Positions 22,717 through 31,790 of a stretch of 64,000 nucleotides of DNA are shown piece by piece. The notes under the pieces are model-generated. The model made no database searches, had not been told where the DNA came from, and saw only the letters and a list, made by a program, of their open reading frames with translations. Within the stretch, counting starts at the first letter, position 1. Each line of letters begins with the position of its first letter. Made by a program: the position numbers and the translations under genes. This DNA is from Terriglobia bacterium. Its GTDB lineage: Bacteria > Acidobacteriota > Terriglobia > Bryobacterales > Bryobacteraceae. Where the stretch lies: NCBI GenBank assembly GCA_020073615.1, contig JAIQEX010000010.1, forward strand, positions 1 to 64,000, in the 5' to 3' direction.

Positions 22717-25713
22717 TCAACGGCGCAAGCGGCGCGAACCCTTCTGTCCCACGACCACCTCCAGCCTGGTTCCCTGGCCCGGTACGGAATCGACCGTCAG
22801 GCACGCCGCCATCTGCCGGGCGCGCTCGCTCATTCCCGCCAGGCCCCAATGGTTGTTCTTGGCGGCCGCCGCCTGCGGATCGAAACCCACGCCGTCGTCC
22901 TGCACCGCGAGACGGACCTCGTGCGCGGCATACACCAGCTCGAGCGTAATCCGCTGCGGCTTCCCGTGATTCATGGCGTTGGTCATCGCCTCCCGGGCGA
23001 TGATGAACAGGTTGGCCTGCACATCGTAAGGAAGCTCGCGGGCTTTTCCGGTCACTGCCATGTCGAAGCGGATGGGGGTGCCCTCCACGATCTGCCGGGA
23101 CGCCGTCCGCAGCGCTTCCGGCAGCGTGCTGTTCTCCAGCGCGGAAATGCGCATCGCCGAGAGCGCCTGGCGGGCCTCCCGCAAGGAACGGTCGGCTTGC
23201 TCCAGCGCCAGATCCATCCTGCGCTTGCCGGCTTCGGGCGAGTTGGCCATCTGGCGCGAGGCCGCCTCCAGTTGGAATACCACCCCCGCGAATCCCTGCA
23301 GGATGGTGTCGTGCATCTCGCGGGTGACCCTCGTGCGCTCCTGGAGGACCAGCCGGAATCCGGATCGGAGCTGGCGCAGGCGGAGCCGGTGCCCGCCATA
23401 GCCGGCCAGCCCGGCCGCGCTCGCGCACAACGCCAGAAACAGCCACGTCTGGTAAAAGTACGGCTCCGCGCGAAATGCCAGCGCCGCTCCCGTTCGGTTC
23501 CAGACGCCATCGTTGTTGCAGGCGATCACACGGAAGCGATAGTGCCTGGGCGGCAGATTGGCGTAGACGATCTGGCGCCTGGTTCCGGCCTCCACCCAAT
23601 CCTTATCGAAGCCCTCCAGTTTGTAGCGGAAGCGAATCGATTCCGGCTGCGTCAGGCTGAGGGCGGTGTACTCGAATTGGACGGCGCGGCCGCGCAGACC
23701 GATCTCGCGTGCGCGGAGTTCGAGCGGCTTGCCGTCGACCAGCAAATGCTCGATGGCGACCGGCGGAGGCAGCGTGTTGGTGCGAATCGTTCCAGGATCG
23801 ATACTGGCGACGCCGTCTTGCGTATCGATCCAAAGCCGTCCATCGCGCGACCTGGCGATGCGCGGACCGGACATTCCGAATTTGGCCGGACGGATGCCGT
23901 CGCCAGGGCCGTAGGTGGCGAACGCCAGGCGCTGGGGCGCGCCGTCGGCGATTCTCTCCAGGCCGGAAAGTTCGAGCGCCAGCAGGCCCGCGGCAGTTAC
24001 CAGCCACAGGTGGCCGTGCGTGTCCTCGCCGATCGCCTGGATGCCGCCTTCCGGCAGGCCTTGCGCGGTAGTCCATGTTGTCCAGTGTCCCTTGCGAAAC
24101 CGGCTCAGCCCCTGGCCGGTTCCCACCCAGGCGTTATCGAGACTGTCTTCGTAAATCGCCTGCACCGGGCCGGCCGCCAGCCCGTTCGGCGGGTCGTAGG
24201 AATGAACCGATCCGCCGCTCACGACCGCGATGCCGCCTTCGTGATAGCCGATCCATAGATCTCCGCCGCGGCTGGTGTGGAGCTGGTAGATGCTCTTCCC
24301 CGGCGGCAGGCCATCCGGTTTGGCCGGCGCGGGCAGGCCATGCTGCAATTGCCACAGGCCCCGTTGCGCGTCGGCCAGCCAGAGCCCTCCACTGCGGCCG
24401 GCGGTGATGGCGAAGACACGAGTGAGGCGCGTCCCCGCGGTCCCCCGGATCTCCACAAAACGGTTGTGGGACAAGTAGCCCAGCCCGCCGGTCGTGCCCG
24501 CCCAGAGGGTCCCGCGCGCATCCTCGTAGAGAGACAGGACCGTGGCCGGCGGCAGCCCCGCTTCTCGCGCATACGTCGTCACGCGATTGCCGCGCACGCG
24601 GCTGAGTCCGCCGCCAACGGCGGCCACCCAAACGTCTCCGTCCCGAGTGGCGCAAACCGCGGTAATGGAGTTTCCCGCCAGGCCGTCCTGTGTGGACCAA
24701 CGCGCCACCTTCGGCTGCCGGAAGCGGTCCAGGCCATTCGCTGTCCCCACCCACAGATTCCCCTCGCGATCCTCGAACATGGCCGTTATCTCATCGCTCG
24801 ATAGCCCGTCCCGGCGGGTGAAGTGCTCCGTCCCGCCGTTCCGCAGGCACAGCAGACCCCGGTTCATGGTTCCGATCCACAGGTTGCCATCGTGTTCCCG
24901 CAACAGAGCCTTAAAATCATTTCTGAGAGGACCGCTGGCCGGCTCGATTCTGCCGTTGGCAAAGCGGAGGATGCCACTCGTCACGCCGGCGAGGAACAGG
25001 TTCCCGGCGGCATCTCCGGTGATTGAGTCGATCCTGTCGCCCGGGCTGGTGAGGCGGCACTGTTCCGCTCGGCTGCCATTCCAGCGGCAGAAGCCCGCCG
25101 ACGTTCCCACCCAGATCGTGCCGCCGCGGTCCTGAAACAAAGACGGAACTTGAAGGCCTGGCAGCCCGGACTCCCATCCAAACGTCTTGACCGTGCCCTT
25201 TTCGATCAACACGAGTCCGGCGGCGGTCTCTTGCGCGCTACCCGCCCAAAGGCGTCCGGCGCGATCTTCGAGCATGGCCGCAATCGTCTGGCTGGTCAAG
25301 ACATTGCCTCCGGCGCAGGGGACCAGGTGCCCATCGCGCAGCTTGGCGATGCCGCTTTCCGTGCCGATCCATAGACCTCCGTCAGCCGATGCAGCCAGCG
25401 ATTTGATCGCCTCGCCCGGCAGCTTTTCTCCCTGCGGCGGCTTCCAGGCGGCGAAGCGCAGGCCGTCAAACCGGAGCAGCCCCTGGGCTGTTCCCAGCCA
25501 CAGGTAACCGTCGCTGGTCTGGGCCAGAGCCTCCACGCCAGGCACCACGGCGCCCTCCATCTGGGTCCAGCTCGTGTGCAGGTACTGCGTGAGAGACAGT
25601 CCGGGAGTCAGAGCAGAAGCGCAATTGGCGAGCGCGATCAGAGCGGCCGCAGCGGCCGGGAATTGGAGGCATGCCTTCCCTCCGGGTACCGCGCAGGTTT
25701 TCACCCCGGTCAT
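22717..25713 (-). CDS. Two-component sensor kinase with Reg_prop beta-propeller, Y_Y_Y and HisKA_3 domains
   Basis: Repeated 'DREGNLWVGTANGLDRF' propeller motifs; 'LQERTRVTREMHDTILQGFAGVVFQLE'. Confidence 0.93.
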   Translation of the reverse strand: MTGVKTCAVPGGKACLQFPAAAAALIALANCASALTPGLSLTQYLHTSWTQMEGAVVPGVEALAQTSDGYLWLGTAQGLLRFDGLRFAAWKPPQGEKLPGEAIKSLAASADGGLWIGTESGIAKLRDGHLVPCAGGNVLTSQTIAAMLEDRAGRLWAGSAQETAAGLVLIEKGTVKTFGWESGLPGLQVPSLFQDRGGTIWVGTSAGFCRWNGSRAEQCRLTSPGDRIDSITGDAAGNLFLAGVTSGILRFANGRIEPASGPLRNDFKALLREHDGNLWIGTMNRGLLCLRNGGTEHFTRRDGLSSDEITAMFEDREGNLWVGTANGLDRFRQPKVARWSTQDGLAGNSITAVCATRDGDVWVAAVGGGLSRVRGNRVTTYAREAGLPPATVLSLYEDARGTLWAGTTGGLGYLSHNRFVEIRGTAGTRLTRVFAITAGRSGGLWLADAQRGLWQLQHGLPAPAKPDGLPPGKSIYQLHTSRGGDLWIGYHEGGIAVVSGGSVHSYDPPNGLAAGPVQAIYEDSLDNAWVGTGQGLSRFRKGHWTTWTTAQGLPEGGIQAIGEDTHGHLWLVTAAGLLALELSGLERIADGAPQRLAFATYGPGDGIRPAKFGMSGPRIARSRDGRLWIDTQDGVASIDPGTIRTNTLPPPVAIEHLLVDGKPLELRAREIGLRGRAVQFEYTALSLTQPESIRFRYKLEGFDKDWVEAGTRRQIVYANLPPRHYRFRVIACNNDGVWNRTGAALAFRAEPYFYQTWLFLALCASAAGLAGYGGHRLRLRQLRSGFRLVLQERTRVTREMHDTILQGFAGVVFQLEAASRQMANSPEAGKRRMDLALEQADRSLREARQALSAMRISALENSTLPEALRTASRQIVEGTPIRFDMAVTGKARELPYDVQANLFIIAREAMTNAMNHGKPQRITLELVYAAHEVRLAVQDDGVGFDPQAAAAKNNHWGLAGMSERARQMAACLTVDSVPGQGTRLEVVVGQKGSRRLRR

Positions 25714-25811
25714 CTCCTGTCGTGAGTGCAGGCACTATTATCGCCCAACAAATCGGGATCGCGATTTCCCATCGGGTATAATTTAAGGAATTCCCGCAAC
25801 GTTACAAGGAA

Positions 25812-26441
25812 ATGAGTGCCAAGGGTCCTATCACGGTCCTGGTGGTCGACGATCATCCTGTGGTGCGGGATGGCCTGAAGGCCATCATTTCTTCCGAGCC
25901 CGGCATGGAAGTGGTGGGCGACGTGGGCACCGCTGGCGAGGCAGTCGCGGCCTACCTCGTGTTGCGCCCCGCCATAGTGCTGATGGATCTGCTGCTGCCC
26001 GATTTCAGCGGCTCGGAAGCCATCCAACGCATCTGCCAGAGGTCGCCGAATGCCCAGATCATTGTCCTGACGACGGCCGATGGCGATGCCGAAATCTACC
26101 GCGCGCTCGAGGCCGGCGCCCGCGGATATCTGCTGAAGGACATGGTGAGGCGCGAGCTCATCCAGGCCATCCGCCAGGTCTGTGCCGGGCAGCGGTACAT
26201 CCCCGCGCAAGTGGGAGCGCGCATCGCCGAGAACCTTCCCCGGCCGGATATCACCGCGCGCGAGATCGAAGTGCTGCAACTGATCGCTTCCGGTTTTCGG
26301 AATAAAGAAATAGCGCACCGGCTAGGGGTCACCGAAGCCACCGTCAACGCCCACATCAAGCATTGCCTGGCGAAGCTCAGCGCCACCGACCGCACTCACG
26401 CCGTTATGGTGGCGCTGCGCCGCGGCATCATTCATCTGTAG
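25812..26441 (+). CDS. NarL/LuxR-family response regulator
   Basis: 'ITVLVVDDHPVVRDGLKAII'; 'DITAREIEVLQLIASGFRNKEIAHRLGVTEATVNAHIK'. Confidence 0.94.
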   Translation: MSAKGPITVLVVDDHPVVRDGLKAIISSEPGMEVVGDVGTAGEAVAAYLVLRPAIVLMDLLLPDFSGSEAIQRICQRSPNAQIIVLTTADGDAEIYRALEAGARGYLLKDMVRRELIQAIRQVCAGQRYIPAQVGARIAENLPRPDITAREIEVLQLIASGFRNKEIAHRLGVTEATVNAHIKHCLAKLSATDRTHAVMVALRRGIIHL

Positions 26442-26565: not shown

Positions 26566-27123
26566 ATGTTGAGACATACCCGCCTCAACAGGGGGCCGGA
26601 GGCGTTGCTATGGGCTCCACTGCCGTTTGCCGCCGCGCGATCGGGGCCGCCCCCGAGGACCAGCGGCGTACTGCCCCACATACAACTCGATCAGTGGCCG
26701 CCCCCTGCCATCGTTGCGCGCCTTATTGATCGCAGTCTCCAGTTTCCCCACGTGCGCGCGCGGCAGAGCCGGATGGCCTCCCCCGAGACGCAGGCCCTGT
26801 GGGTGTCCGACGAGCGCGCTCTCGGCCCCGCCGAGGCGTTCATCGACGGCCTCGAATTCTGCCATCTTCACGCGGCGCCGGAGGGCAGCCTCCATTTGAC
26901 GCTGCCGCGGGAGGTTCGCCCGCAAGTTCTGAAATTGGGCTGGGCCGAACTGCATCTGCTGGTCCGCGCCGGGTTCCTGCCGGAGTCGCTGGTGCTGGTC
27001 TATGCCCCACGGAACGACTCCGAGTTGGAGATCGCGCTGCGGCTGGTCCAGATTTCGTGCCAGTTCGCGCAGGGTGTCTATGACCGGTTGCGCTCGCCGC
27101 GGCGTGAGGCGATCCATGGGTAA
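26566..27123 (+). CDS. DUF5519/'luciferase'-domain family protein
   Basis: 'FCHLHAAPEGSLHLTLP...KLGWAELHLL...LVLVYAPRNDSELEIALRLVQIS'; 8-nt overlap with the downstream cyclase. Confidence 0.65.
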   Translation: MLRHTRLNRGPEALLWAPLPFAAARSGPPPRTSGVLPHIQLDQWPPPAIVARLIDRSLQFPHVRARQSRMASPETQALWVSDERALGPAEAFIDGLEFCHLHAAPEGSLHLTLPREVRPQVLKLGWAELHLLVRAGFLPESLVLVYAPRNDSELEIALRLVQISCQFAQGVYDRLRSPRREAIHG

Positions 27124-28978
27124 ATTGGCGGGCATTTTTTACTTCGATTTGCGGCCGGTCTCCCCGGAAGATCGCGATCGGGTTGGGCGGAGCCTCGATG
27201 GTCCGGAGCCCGCCGCTCTGGAGATCTACGGCGCTCCCGGACTTTTGATGGCATACGCCGCATCGCCCGATTCCCGGCGCGACCGCGGCGCCGGCTGTTG
27301 CTCGGCGGGCCACCGCGCGTGCACCTTTGACGGCCGGCTGGACAACCGCGCCGAGCTGCTTGCCAGGCTTGACGAAAACCGATCGCGGGCGCCCGCCAGC
27401 GCCGTTGCCCTCGCCATCCATGAGGCCGATGGCCCTGCGGGATTGGGCCGGCTCGTGGGCGACTGGAGCCTGGCCATTTGGAACGCGCGGAATCGGACCG
27501 TATCGCTCGCCAGCGACTACGCCGGCACCCGTCCGCTTTATTTCCATCGGACGGCCAGCCGCCTCATCTGGTCCTCGTCGCTCAAAGATATCGCCGAGTG
27601 GGCCCGCGCCGGAGACCTCGACGAAGACTACGCAGCCGCCTTCCTCAGCCGCGGCCTCGCTGCACATCGAACGCCGTATCGCGGCGTTCTCCCGGTCCCC
27701 GCGGGTTCCATCGTCAGCGTATCGCCCCAGCGGTTGGAGACGACCAAGTATTGGAGCCTTCCGGTCAGCCGGACCATCCACTATCGAGACGAGTCGCAAT
27801 ATGAAGAGCAACTGCGGGTGTTGTTTCAGGAAGCGGTTGCCGCCCGCCTCGACACCGCCGCGCCGGTCTGCGCCGAACTGAGCGGCGGCCTGGACTCGTC
27901 GTCGGTGGTCTCCATGGCCCACCGCTTGATTCAGGGCGGCAAGGTCCGAGCGCCCGGACTGGTCAGCTTCAGCTATCGCTCCGCCGGGTCTACCGACGAA
28001 CAGTTTTACCGCGCGGTGGAGCAGAGCTGTAACCTTCCGGCGGTCCATCTGGAAACCGGCGAATACCCCGCCACCTCCCCGGACTTCGCCGCCGCCGCGC
28101 CCCTGTTGTGGGGGCCGCGCCTGACCGAGGTGGCGCGCCGCATGGCGGCGGGCGGATCGCGTGTGTTCCTCACCGGCCAGCTTGGCGACCTGATGATGGG
28201 AAACTGGCTCGACGATTCCGAACAGGCCGGCGACTACCTGCGGCAGGGCCGGTTTTCGCAAGCCGTGCGCGAGGCTTTTGCCTGGAGCCATTCCCTGCGG
28301 GTCCCCGTCTATTCCATTCTCGGGCGCGCGCTCGGAGTGGCCTCTTCGGTCAACGCGGATATGGCGCGAAACGCGGCCGGCCACGCTGCTTATGGCGACT
28401 CCCTCAGCCCCGGCCTGAGCAGAATCGCCGCCCTTCACGAGCGCGGCCTCTCCGCACAGGACTGGCTGCGGCACGCGTTGCCGGCTCGCCGAAAACGGCT
28501 CAAGGCGCTCCATGAGGTTCTGCAATGCCGGGCCTTGCAATGTCCCGAACCCATGCAAGGCGTCGAGTACTGCCATCCGTTTCTCCACCGCCCGCTGGTG
28601 GAATTCATGCTGGCCATTCCGCCCGCGGCCGTCTGCCGGCCGGGCGAGCCCCGGCGCCTGATGCGCCGCGCCTTCGCCGGCATCGTTCCCGATCTGGTGC
28701 TTCGCCGCCGCTCCAAGGGAGGCTACGACGCCATGTTCCTGAACGCTCTCCGGCCGTGCGCCTCCGAGCTTCTGCGCCGTCCCGGAGAGATAGGTCTGGT
28801 GCAGCTTGGTTACGTGGACCGCCGCAGCGTTGAATTCCGCCTGCGCAGGCTGGTGGCGGGTCTGGAGTGCAATGAATCGCAGTTGCGCCACCTGATTCTG
28901 TTCGAATTCTGGCTGCGCAATCGAGAGCAGGCCGGCAGCGCCGCCGATGGGCGCGCCACGGCGCCGGCGGCGGCGTAG
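27116..28978 (+). CDS. Asparagine-synthase-like lasso peptide macrolactam synthetase (C protein)
   Basis: PP-loop 'CAELSGGLDSSSVVSMA'; N-terminus MGKLAGIF lacks the glutaminase Cys; start revised. Confidence 0.88.
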   Translation: MGKLAGIFYFDLRPVSPEDRDRVGRSLDGPEPAALEIYGAPGLLMAYAASPDSRRDRGAGCCSAGHRACTFDGRLDNRAELLARLDENRSRAPASAVALAIHEADGPAGLGRLVGDWSLAIWNARNRTVSLASDYAGTRPLYFHRTASRLIWSSSLKDIAEWARAGDLDEDYAAAFLSRGLAAHRTPYRGVLPVPAGSIVSVSPQRLETTKYWSLPVSRTIHYRDESQYEEQLRVLFQEAVAARLDTAAPVCAELSGGLDSSSVVSMAHRLIQGGKVRAPGLVSFSYRSAGSTDEQFYRAVEQSCNLPAVHLETGEYPATSPDFAAAAPLLWGPRLTEVARRMAAGGSRVFLTGQLGDLMMGNWLDDSEQAGDYLRQGRFSQAVREAFAWSHSLRVPVYSILGRALGVASSVNADMARNAAGHAAYGDSLSPGLSRIAALHERGLSAQDWLRHALPARRKRLKALHEVLQCRALQCPEPMQGVEYCHPFLHRPLVEFMLAIPPAAVCRPGEPRRLMRRAFAGIVPDLVLRRRSKGGYDAMFLNALRPCASELLRRPGEIGLVQLGYVDRRSVEFRLRRLVAGLECNESQLRHLILFEFWLRNREQAGSAADGRATAPAAA

Positions 28979-29110: not shown

Positions 29111-29470
29111 ATGTTCACGTCATTTCGCCGGGCCATCCGGCACTTCCGCTACCGGCGCGCGGCGCAATCCGTGGCGCAGCCGAAACCGCCCGGGGAGGGT
29201 GTACCGATTGTCCCCGCGGAAGTCCGGGCGTCGACCGGCGGCGGCGCTCTATTGCTGCTCGACACCGGGCAGGGCCTTCTCTTCAAGTCCAACTCTACGG
29301 GCGCCCGTATCTGGCAGGGTCTGGTGGAGGGCAAATCCATGACGGCCGTTGCCCAACAATTGAGCGAGGAATATGGCATCGCGCCGGAGCGCACAGCAGG
29401 AGACATCGAACGCTTCCTGGCGGATCTCCGGGCCAACGGTCTGCTGACGGTTGCTCAGGGGAGCCGATGA
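29111..29470 (+). CDS. PqqD-like RiPP recognition element (lasso B1/E)
   Basis: 'GGGALLLLDTGQGLLFKSNSTGARIWQGLVEGKSMTAVAQQLSEEYGI...DIERFLADLRANGLL'. Confidence 0.88.
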   Translation: MFTSFRRAIRHFRYRRAAQSVAQPKPPGEGVPIVPAEVRASTGGGALLLLDTGQGLLFKSNSTGARIWQGLVEGKSMTAVAQQLSEEYGIAPERTAGDIERFLADLRANGLLTVAQGSR

Positions 29471-29856
29471 TCGCGCGCCTCTCCCGCAGCCTGTTGATCG
29501 CGCAAGCCCTCTGGCAACTGCTTCGCTATGACGTGGTGCTCAGAGCAGGGGGCTTCCGCCGCATTCATCGCGACCTGGGCCGGCGGCGCCCCAAGCCGGC
29601 GGGCGGCGCTCCCAGCCGGGAAGCGCGCATCTGCGAGGCCATGCGGTGGGCCCTTTCGTTGTACTGCAAGCCGGCCCTGTGTTTGCAGCGTGCGGTTGCC
29701 ACTGCTCGTCTGTTGCGGCGGCACGGCATGGAAGCGCACGTCGTGATCGGATACCGGCCCGAGCCGTTCTTCGGGCACGCCTGGGTCGAGATTGAGGGCC
29801 GGGTAGTGGACGATTCGCCGGCCTGGCAGCGCCTGCATGTTTTGGAGCGAATTTAG
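29467..29856 (+). CDS. Transglutaminase-like lasso leader peptidase (B2)
   Basis: Cys/His/Asp triad in 'KPALCLQRAVATARLLRRHG', 'FFGHAWVEIEGRVVDDSP'; 4-nt overlap with B1. Confidence 0.9.
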   Translation: MIARLSRSLLIAQALWQLLRYDVVLRAGGFRRIHRDLGRRRPKPAGGAPSREARICEAMRWALSLYCKPALCLQRAVATARLLRRHGMEAHVVIGYRPEPFFGHAWVEIEGRVVDDSPAWQRLHVLERI

Positions 29857-29874: not shown

Positions 29875-30027
29875 ATGATTCCGTACCAAGCGCCCGTGCT
29901 CGACAAAATCGGCAAAGCCGAGGAAGTGATCCGTGGCATCCTGTCCACCGGAACGGATATCGACGGACAGTCGTTCACCAACGATTTTGAGTTCCTGGAC
30001 GACCGCGACGATGCATCCGGCCGCTAG
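29875..30027 (+). CDS. Candidate lasso peptide precursor (A), 50 aa, absent from the ORF track
   Basis: RBS AAGGAG; MIPYQAPVLDKIGKAEEVIRGILSTGTDIDGQSFTNDFEFLDDRDDASGR; leader YxxPxLxxxG motif; core Gly1...Asp8; 18 nt after B2. Confidence 0.82.
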   Translation: MIPYQAPVLDKIGKAEEVIRGILSTGTDIDGQSFTNDFEFLDDRDDASGR

Positions 30028-30042
30028 CGCGAAGGGAAAACC

Positions 30043-30255
30043 ATGCCCCGCACCTCCCGAAAGCAAAAGCGTTCCGTGGGCCGCCCGCGGCGCCACGTTG
30101 AGCCCGACCAGATCAACAACCTCCGCGGCCAGGGTTTGAGTTTCCGGGAGATCGCGCAACAAACGGGGCTCGGCTACGGCACGGTGCGCAGAGTCCTCCT
30201 GAGAAGCGGTTCGTCTTCCCCGGAGACCGGCCCATCCGGTAACGCAGAATCATAG
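30043..30255 (+). CDS. Small helix-turn-helix protein resembling the C-terminal HTH of serine recombinases
   Basis: 'VGRPRRHVEPDQINNLRGQGLSFREIAQQTGLGYGTVRRVL'; 15 nt after the precursor. Confidence 0.65.
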   Translation: MPRTSRKQKRSVGRPRRHVEPDQINNLRGQGLSFREIAQQTGLGYGTVRRVLLRSGSSSPETGPSGNAES

Positions 30256-30947: not shown

Positions 30948-31265
30948 GTGCGGCAGTTTGCCGTACAATCATATGAGAGTCAGGGAGCAGTGCCCACGAT
31001 GCCAAAGCTGGAGCGATTAGAGGCCCGCGTTACGAACCGGCAAAAACGCCTGATCGAACGCGCCGCGAACCTGGAAGGGCGCTCCATTACCGATTTTGTG
31101 GTGGCTGTGACGCAAGCTGCAGCCAGGCAGGTGGTTGAGGAGCATGAGATCTTAAAGCTCACGGCCAAGGACCGCGAGGTGTTCGTGGATGCGTTGCTGC
31201 ACCCGGCCGAGCCTAACGCCAGGCTCCGCGAAGCCGTCCGGCGAAACCACCGCCGCCTCAGGTAG
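30948..31265 (+). CDS. DUF1778-type antitoxin (TacA-like; start uncertain)
   Basis: 'LEARVTNRQKRLIERAANLEGRSITDFVVAVTQAAAR'. Confidence 0.82.
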   Translation: MRQFAVQSYESQGAVPTMPKLERLEARVTNRQKRLIERAANLEGRSITDFVVAVTQAAARQVVEEHEILKLTAKDREVFVDALLHPAEPNARLREAVRRNHRRLR

Positions 31266-31274
31266 CAGGTCGAC

Positions 31275-31790
31275 GTGGAAGCGTTCCAACGAGCCATAGA
31301 GCCATTCCAAAAGCATCGCCACTCCAGAGACGACTTTTCCTGTGAAGTAGAATCGTTGGAGCGGTATTTTAAGACCCAGGCGGCTCAAGAGGTCGCGAAA
31401 AAGGTTGCCGCGGTCTTCGTACTCGCTGAAGGCCGCACGGTCATCGGCTATTACACGCTCTCGAGTTACACCATCGATGGCGGCGAATTGCCGGATGAAG
31501 TTGCGAAACACCTGCCGAACTATCCGAAGTTGCCGGCCATTCTGATTGGCCGGCTGGCCCGCGACAAGAAGTATGCCCGTCAAGGAGTGGGCGAAACACT
31601 GCTGGTGGACGCGTTGCGGCGAAGCCTGGAAAACACCGCAAGAGTCGGCGCCGTCGCGGTGGTTGTGGAAGCAGAAAACGAAAAAGCTCGCAAGTTCTAC
31701 CTCGACTACGGGTTCATCCCGTTCCCCGGCCATCGGGACAAGCTGTTCATGCCGATGGGGACCATACAGAAGACTTTTTCGCCGGTCTGA
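31275..31790 (+). CDS. GNAT acetyltransferase toxin (TacT-like)
   Basis: 'LPAILIGRLARDKKYARQGVGETLLVDAL...VVVEAENEKARKFYLDYGFIPF'; paired with DUF1778. Confidence 0.85.
   Translation: MEAFQRAIEPFQKHRHSRDDFSCEVESLERYFKTQAAQEVAKKVAAVFVLAEGRTVIGYYTLSSYTIDGGELPDEVAKHLPNYPKLPAILIGRLARDKKYARQGVGETLLVDALRRSLENTARVGAVAVVVEAENEKARKFYLDYGFIPFPGHRDKLFMPMGTIQKTFSPV

Follow-up and report, generated by a model that had tools for sequence, protein, structure and literature searches.

In a Bryobacteraceae (Acidobacteriota) genome, a gene of 50 codons following the genes for a lasso cyclase (C), a leader-binding protein (B1) and a leader peptidase (B2) very probably encodes a real lasso-peptide precursor (A), as judged from its sequence, its neighbours and its homologues. 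We consider it highly probable that its ribosomally made product would be processed along the B1/B2/C route proposed below, with a ring between Gly21 and Asp28. The window is the whole stretch of 64,000 nucleotides that was analysed, in which the cluster has the order C-B1-B2-A.

Processing enzymes and precursor gene

The features of the cluster and its surroundings in the window are:

22717..25713, minus strand: Reg_prop / Y_Y_Y / HisKA_3 sensor histidine kinase, 998 aa (Pfam matches)
25812..26441, plus strand: NarL/LuxR-type response regulator (PF00072 and PF00196)
26566..27123, plus strand: PF17648 'luciferase-domain' protein, 185 aa (PF17648, E 2.3e-18)
27116..28978, plus strand: C, macrolactam (lasso) cyclase, asparagine-synthetase-like (PF00733, E 3.8e-31)
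29111..29470, plus strand: B1, PqqD-like leader-binding protein, RRE (PF05402, E 5.5e-15, above cut-off)
29467..29856, plus strand: B2, leader peptidase, transglutaminase-like (NF033537, 76.7 bits, cut-off 33; PF13471)
29875..30027, plus strand: predicted lasso precursor A, leader residues 1-20 and core residues 21-50 (ten-copy comparison and dN/dS)
29935..29958, plus strand: predicted macrolactam ring GILSTGTD, core 1-8, closing from the N-terminus of Gly21 to the Asp28 side chain
29986..29994, plus strand: FEF motif, F38-E39-F40, core 18-20, candidate plug residues

The cyclase carries the ATP site SGGLDSSS and likely starts at ATG 27116, giving an overlap of 8 nt with the preceding gene; its match to NF033535 (E 2.3e-55) is below the model cut-off, as is that of B1 to the lasso PqqD model NF033530 (E 8.8e-13). 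B2 is single-copy in the window genome, and its Cys in ALCLQRA and His in GHAWVE are both invariant across 12 B2 sequences, while the third catalytic residue (Asp) is apparently Gly in two relatives. No exporter was recognised beside C within the window; at the related locus L083 an ABC exporter adjoins C, and B1 was not found there.

Precursor A reads MIPYQAPVLDKIGKAEEVIR|GILSTGTD-IDGQSFTNDFEFLDDRDDASGR (leader|core). The window sequence confirmed the 50 codons of the earlier note, from ATG at 29875 to a TAG, and their position 18 nt after the B2 gene with its stop at 29856. The ribosome-binding site is as good as had been claimed; its spacing, however, measures 4 nt (AAAAGGAG-AAAC-ATG) instead of 5-6 nt. 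A mechanical ORF caller starts the gene at the upstream GTG 29860, leading to 55 aa, but ATG 29875 is the better start because the Shine-Dalgarno sequence precedes it. The leader segment YQAPVLDKIG fits the motif YxxPxLxxxG, as proposed before, with Y4 at position -17, P7 at -14, L9 at -12 and G13 at -8, followed by I19 at -2 and R20 at -1. Against the NCBIfam lasso-leader model NF033521 the precursor scored 12 bits at a cut-off of 19, and therefore this model would not name it.

Further downstream, a helix-turn-helix (HTH) gene of 70 residues follows the precursor (window 30043-30255), with a counterpart of 63% identity at the same-genus locus L032. A small ORF and then an acetyltransferase-like ORF at 30948-31790 resemble, by eye, a DUF1778/GNAT toxin-antitoxin pair.

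Homologous precursors and the predicted core

L032, from a Bryobacteraceae MAG that is the sole other genome of the genus in the comparison set, has the same gene arrangement as the window and carries an orthologue (MHETYEAPVLNKIGKAEEVIRGIMSNGTDIDGQSFTNDFEFLDDRDDNPDR) 77 nt after B2, with 82% identity to the window precursor. A profile built from these two sequences was searched over 237 Bryobacteraceae genomes and led to copies adjoining lasso enzymes in G399, G509, G492, G531 and G490. The G531 copy has a run of N within the leader, and G490 has two copies on separate contigs, for one of which (L089) the stretch examined includes just the end of C. A second copy in G375 is degenerate and fused in frame to the adjacent HTH gene (L087 1701-2015). 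A seven-sequence profile subsequently detected a copy in G685, a member of another acidobacterial family, just downstream of its own cyclase. The profile searches thereby added eight copies, seven from Bryobacteraceae (one degenerate) and one from the other family, and together with the window and L032 these make up a ten-copy set from eight genomes, nine copies being intact. Nearly all ten adjoin the same processing enzymes. Weak profile matches lay mostly within long unrelated ORFs, and one of them, L088, was checked and rejected. No precursor was found at L090, where the contig starts inside B1; the scan of viral contigs gave no relative, and that of genome contigs gave the same-genus contig only.

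The earlier note had staked its reading on Y4, P7, L9, G13, G21 and D28 being kept in homologues. All of these are invariant in the seven-sequence alignment, together with M1, G26, G31 and F40, and no better precursor was seen beside the cyclase in these relatives. With Tyr set to -17, Gly occupies position 1 and Asp position 8 in every copy (10/10), residue -2 being either Ile or Val and residue -1 either Leu or Arg; this agrees with the former assignment of Gly21 and Asp28 to core positions 1 and 8. The usual Thr(-2) is absent from all ten. The departure from Thr noted earlier is therefore real, but it is not an oddity of one gene, as it belongs to a described subclass (PMC10368454); because the precursor BsfA has Ile(-2) (PMC10368454), Thr(-2) is not obligatory for a lasso precursor.

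From this arrangement the following route can be proposed. B1 would bind the leader via Y(-17)xxP(-14)xL(-12) and present it to B2, a cysteine protease expected to cleave after Arg20. C would then join Gly21, through its newly exposed amino group, to the Asp28 side chain, leading to an 8-residue ring with the tail presumably threaded, and the acidic end would remain outside the ring or be trimmed.

The tail itself falls into two parts. F40 is invariant in the seven-sequence alignment, and FEF or a variant of it is present near core 17-20 in all nine intact copies; in the ten-copy comparison two copies have FEF at core 17-19, L137 has MEF, and L086 has QF, the last residue of which is core 20. 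The acidic end past core 20 comprises 2-13 residues and is poorly conserved. Of the long acidic tail FEFLDDRDD, which had been listed as an oddity, the end past FEF is indeed variable, whereas the FEF-type motif is a conserved part of the core. The plugs of MccJ25 are F19 and Y20, and F38 and F40, situated near these positions, may by analogy serve as plugs. The variable length and poor conservation past core 20, as expected for a dispensable end, would also suit a product in which the Gly1-Asp8 ring closes but which is an unthreaded branched-cyclic peptide, or which loses the acidic tail after FEF, leaving approximately 20 core residues. We regard such a product as unlikely, though it is the most serious alternative: the FEF-type residues, whose distance from Gly1 hardly varies, look like a selected plug, and no extra protease gene for trimming was identified within the cluster.

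For the predicted ring between Gly21 and Asp28, the core start was scanned from -8 to +8 in the ten copies, and an invariant Gly combined with an invariant acid at 7-9 was obtained at position 1 only. A core beginning elsewhere, for example at Gly26 (Ser24 penultimate) or Thr27 (Thr25 penultimate), could draw on the invariance of Gly26 at +6 and on the Thr/Ser residues just ahead of it in the window. However, an acid at 7-9 from the Gly at +6 occurs in 0/10 copies, and Thr27 likewise has Asp/Glu at 7, 8 or 9 in no copy; the residues preceding either start are not conserved, and the leader would exceed the length expected from the YxxPxL spacing by five or six residues, which makes another core start very improbable.

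Comparison of codons 4-46 between the window and L032 resulted in a dN/dS of 0.11 at a dS of 0.36, a rough ratio as it rests on 43 codons; the same pair gave higher values for the enzymes (B2 0.35, B1 0.36, C 0.29). The precursor has changed in the manner of a constrained protein, indicating purifying selection at the level of the sequence. Although copies can decay, as seen for the degenerate one in L087, a chance ORF or a dead relic next to an otherwise functional cluster is refuted by the conservation among the homologues, which adjoin B2 or C in several genera, and by the low dN/dS and the good ribosome site, leaving this explanation a negligible probability.

The PF17648 gene, the regulators and the cyclase clade

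In a cyclase tree (short search), a group of 8 (SH-aLRT 99), made up of the window, L032, L083, L137, L159, L134, L084 and L085, is nested inside a group of 16 (SH-aLRT 100). The larger group takes in the remaining acidobacterial clusters observed with Ile/Val(-2) and is separate from Bryobacteraceae cyclases with Thr(-2) precursors, among them L034, L038, L046 and L048; one of its members, L136, has a precursor with Thr(-2). In G685, L130 (G685:C1:100000-116000) has two cyclase/B1/B2 lasso sets about 6 kb apart. At L135 (5486-6138) one cyclase is followed by three lasso-type precursors in tandem that have Ile(-2), Gly1 and, as judged by eye, an acid at or near 8.

The gene for the PF17648 protein overlaps the start of C and is probably co-transcribed with it. 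It is located immediately 5' of C in 7/7 clade clusters with coverage (window, L137, L083, L084, L085, L134 and L159), L032 being outside this count as it starts inside C. The window genome and five relatives have a single PF17648 match each, and none was found in G685. PF17648 is not lasso-specific in general, since in six other Bryobacteraceae genomes the 10-14 kb examined at a PF17648 gene revealed no lasso gene. The motifs EFCxLH and GWAExH are conserved in the protein. In a fold search with a PF17648 model, no match reached E <= 0.001; the two strongest, 2a1v and 3h9x, which we take to be DUF419/MmcQ-YjbR-like, were too weak at E about 0.02. A literature search found no publication tying PF17648 or Bryobacteraceae to lasso peptides. 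The gene, linked to one cyclase clade, is possibly a new accessory gene of a lasso cluster.

The histidine kinase and the NarL-type regulator form a divergent pair adjoining the lasso cluster (window 22717-26441), and transcription of the cluster would probably be under their control. Pfam matches confirmed a propeller histidine kinase for the window, L137 and L084, situated between C and B1 in the latter two, and a response regulator for the window, L137 and L085; ORFs of similar appearance were also seen in or beside the clusters of other relatives. Tentatively, and with a probability well below even, the PF17648 protein might be a new pathway-specific lasso component, acting in tailoring, self-protection or regulation and marking a kinase-free Ile/Val(-2) lineage, with the conserved FEF-acidic core, produced under a propeller two-component sensor, possibly being a signal rather than an antibiotic.

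Relation to known lasso systems

With MccJ25, as generally known, the predicted window peptide has in common an 8-residue ring from Gly1, aromatics at 19-20 and the enzyme class. MccJ25 differs in closing its ring to Glu8, in its Thr(-2), in a fused B protein, in a core of 21 residues and in having an exporter.

The closer relatives are precursors with Ile or Val at -2. In Bradymonas BsfA, Ile(-2) influences phosphorylation and leader removal (Duan et al., 2023; PMC10368454), and translation of the printed bsfA gene gives A-I-I-R|G-T-S-G-N-E-V-D (PMC10368454). BsfA and other Bradymonadales precursors with Ile(-2) have Y(-17), P(-14), L(-12), Ile(-2), Gly1, Asp8 and split B1/B2 in common with the window, and BsfA also has the same I-R|G junction with Arg(-1). 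The BsfA core past residue 8, in contrast, is unrelated to that of the window and is without an FEF motif, and its Ser3 is phosphorylated by a cluster kinase, whereas a search of the window cluster revealed no such gene. Ile/Val(-2) precursors have also been reported in silico from Acidobacteriaceae and Sphingomonadales (PMC10368454, citing TAA 166, Tietz et al., 2017). Those from Acidobacteriaceae (TAA 166 and the set of Duan et al.), likewise predicted, agree with the window in phylum and penultimate residue. Every Ile/Val(-2) cluster of Duan et al., including those from Acidobacteriaceae, encodes a kinase or phosphotransferase, as stated there (PMC10368454), again unlike the window cluster. 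An HPr-kinase-type gene was not found on the cluster contigs of the window genome and the relatives examined, matches to TIGR04352 and PF07475 being on other contigs, and therefore the window belongs to a lineage of Ile/Val(-2) lasso clusters that seems to lack the kinase.

The ten copies form a coherent addition to the Ile/Val(-2) lasso precursors, the one from the window scoring under the threshold of the standard NCBI leader model. They offer ten natural sequences for studying the acceptance of Ile in place of Thr by B1 and B2 in a setting that lacks the kinase of the only characterised example. Ile(-2) together with Gly1 and Asp8 is already known as a rare variant (PMC10368454), and the window precursor is an added predicted case of it.
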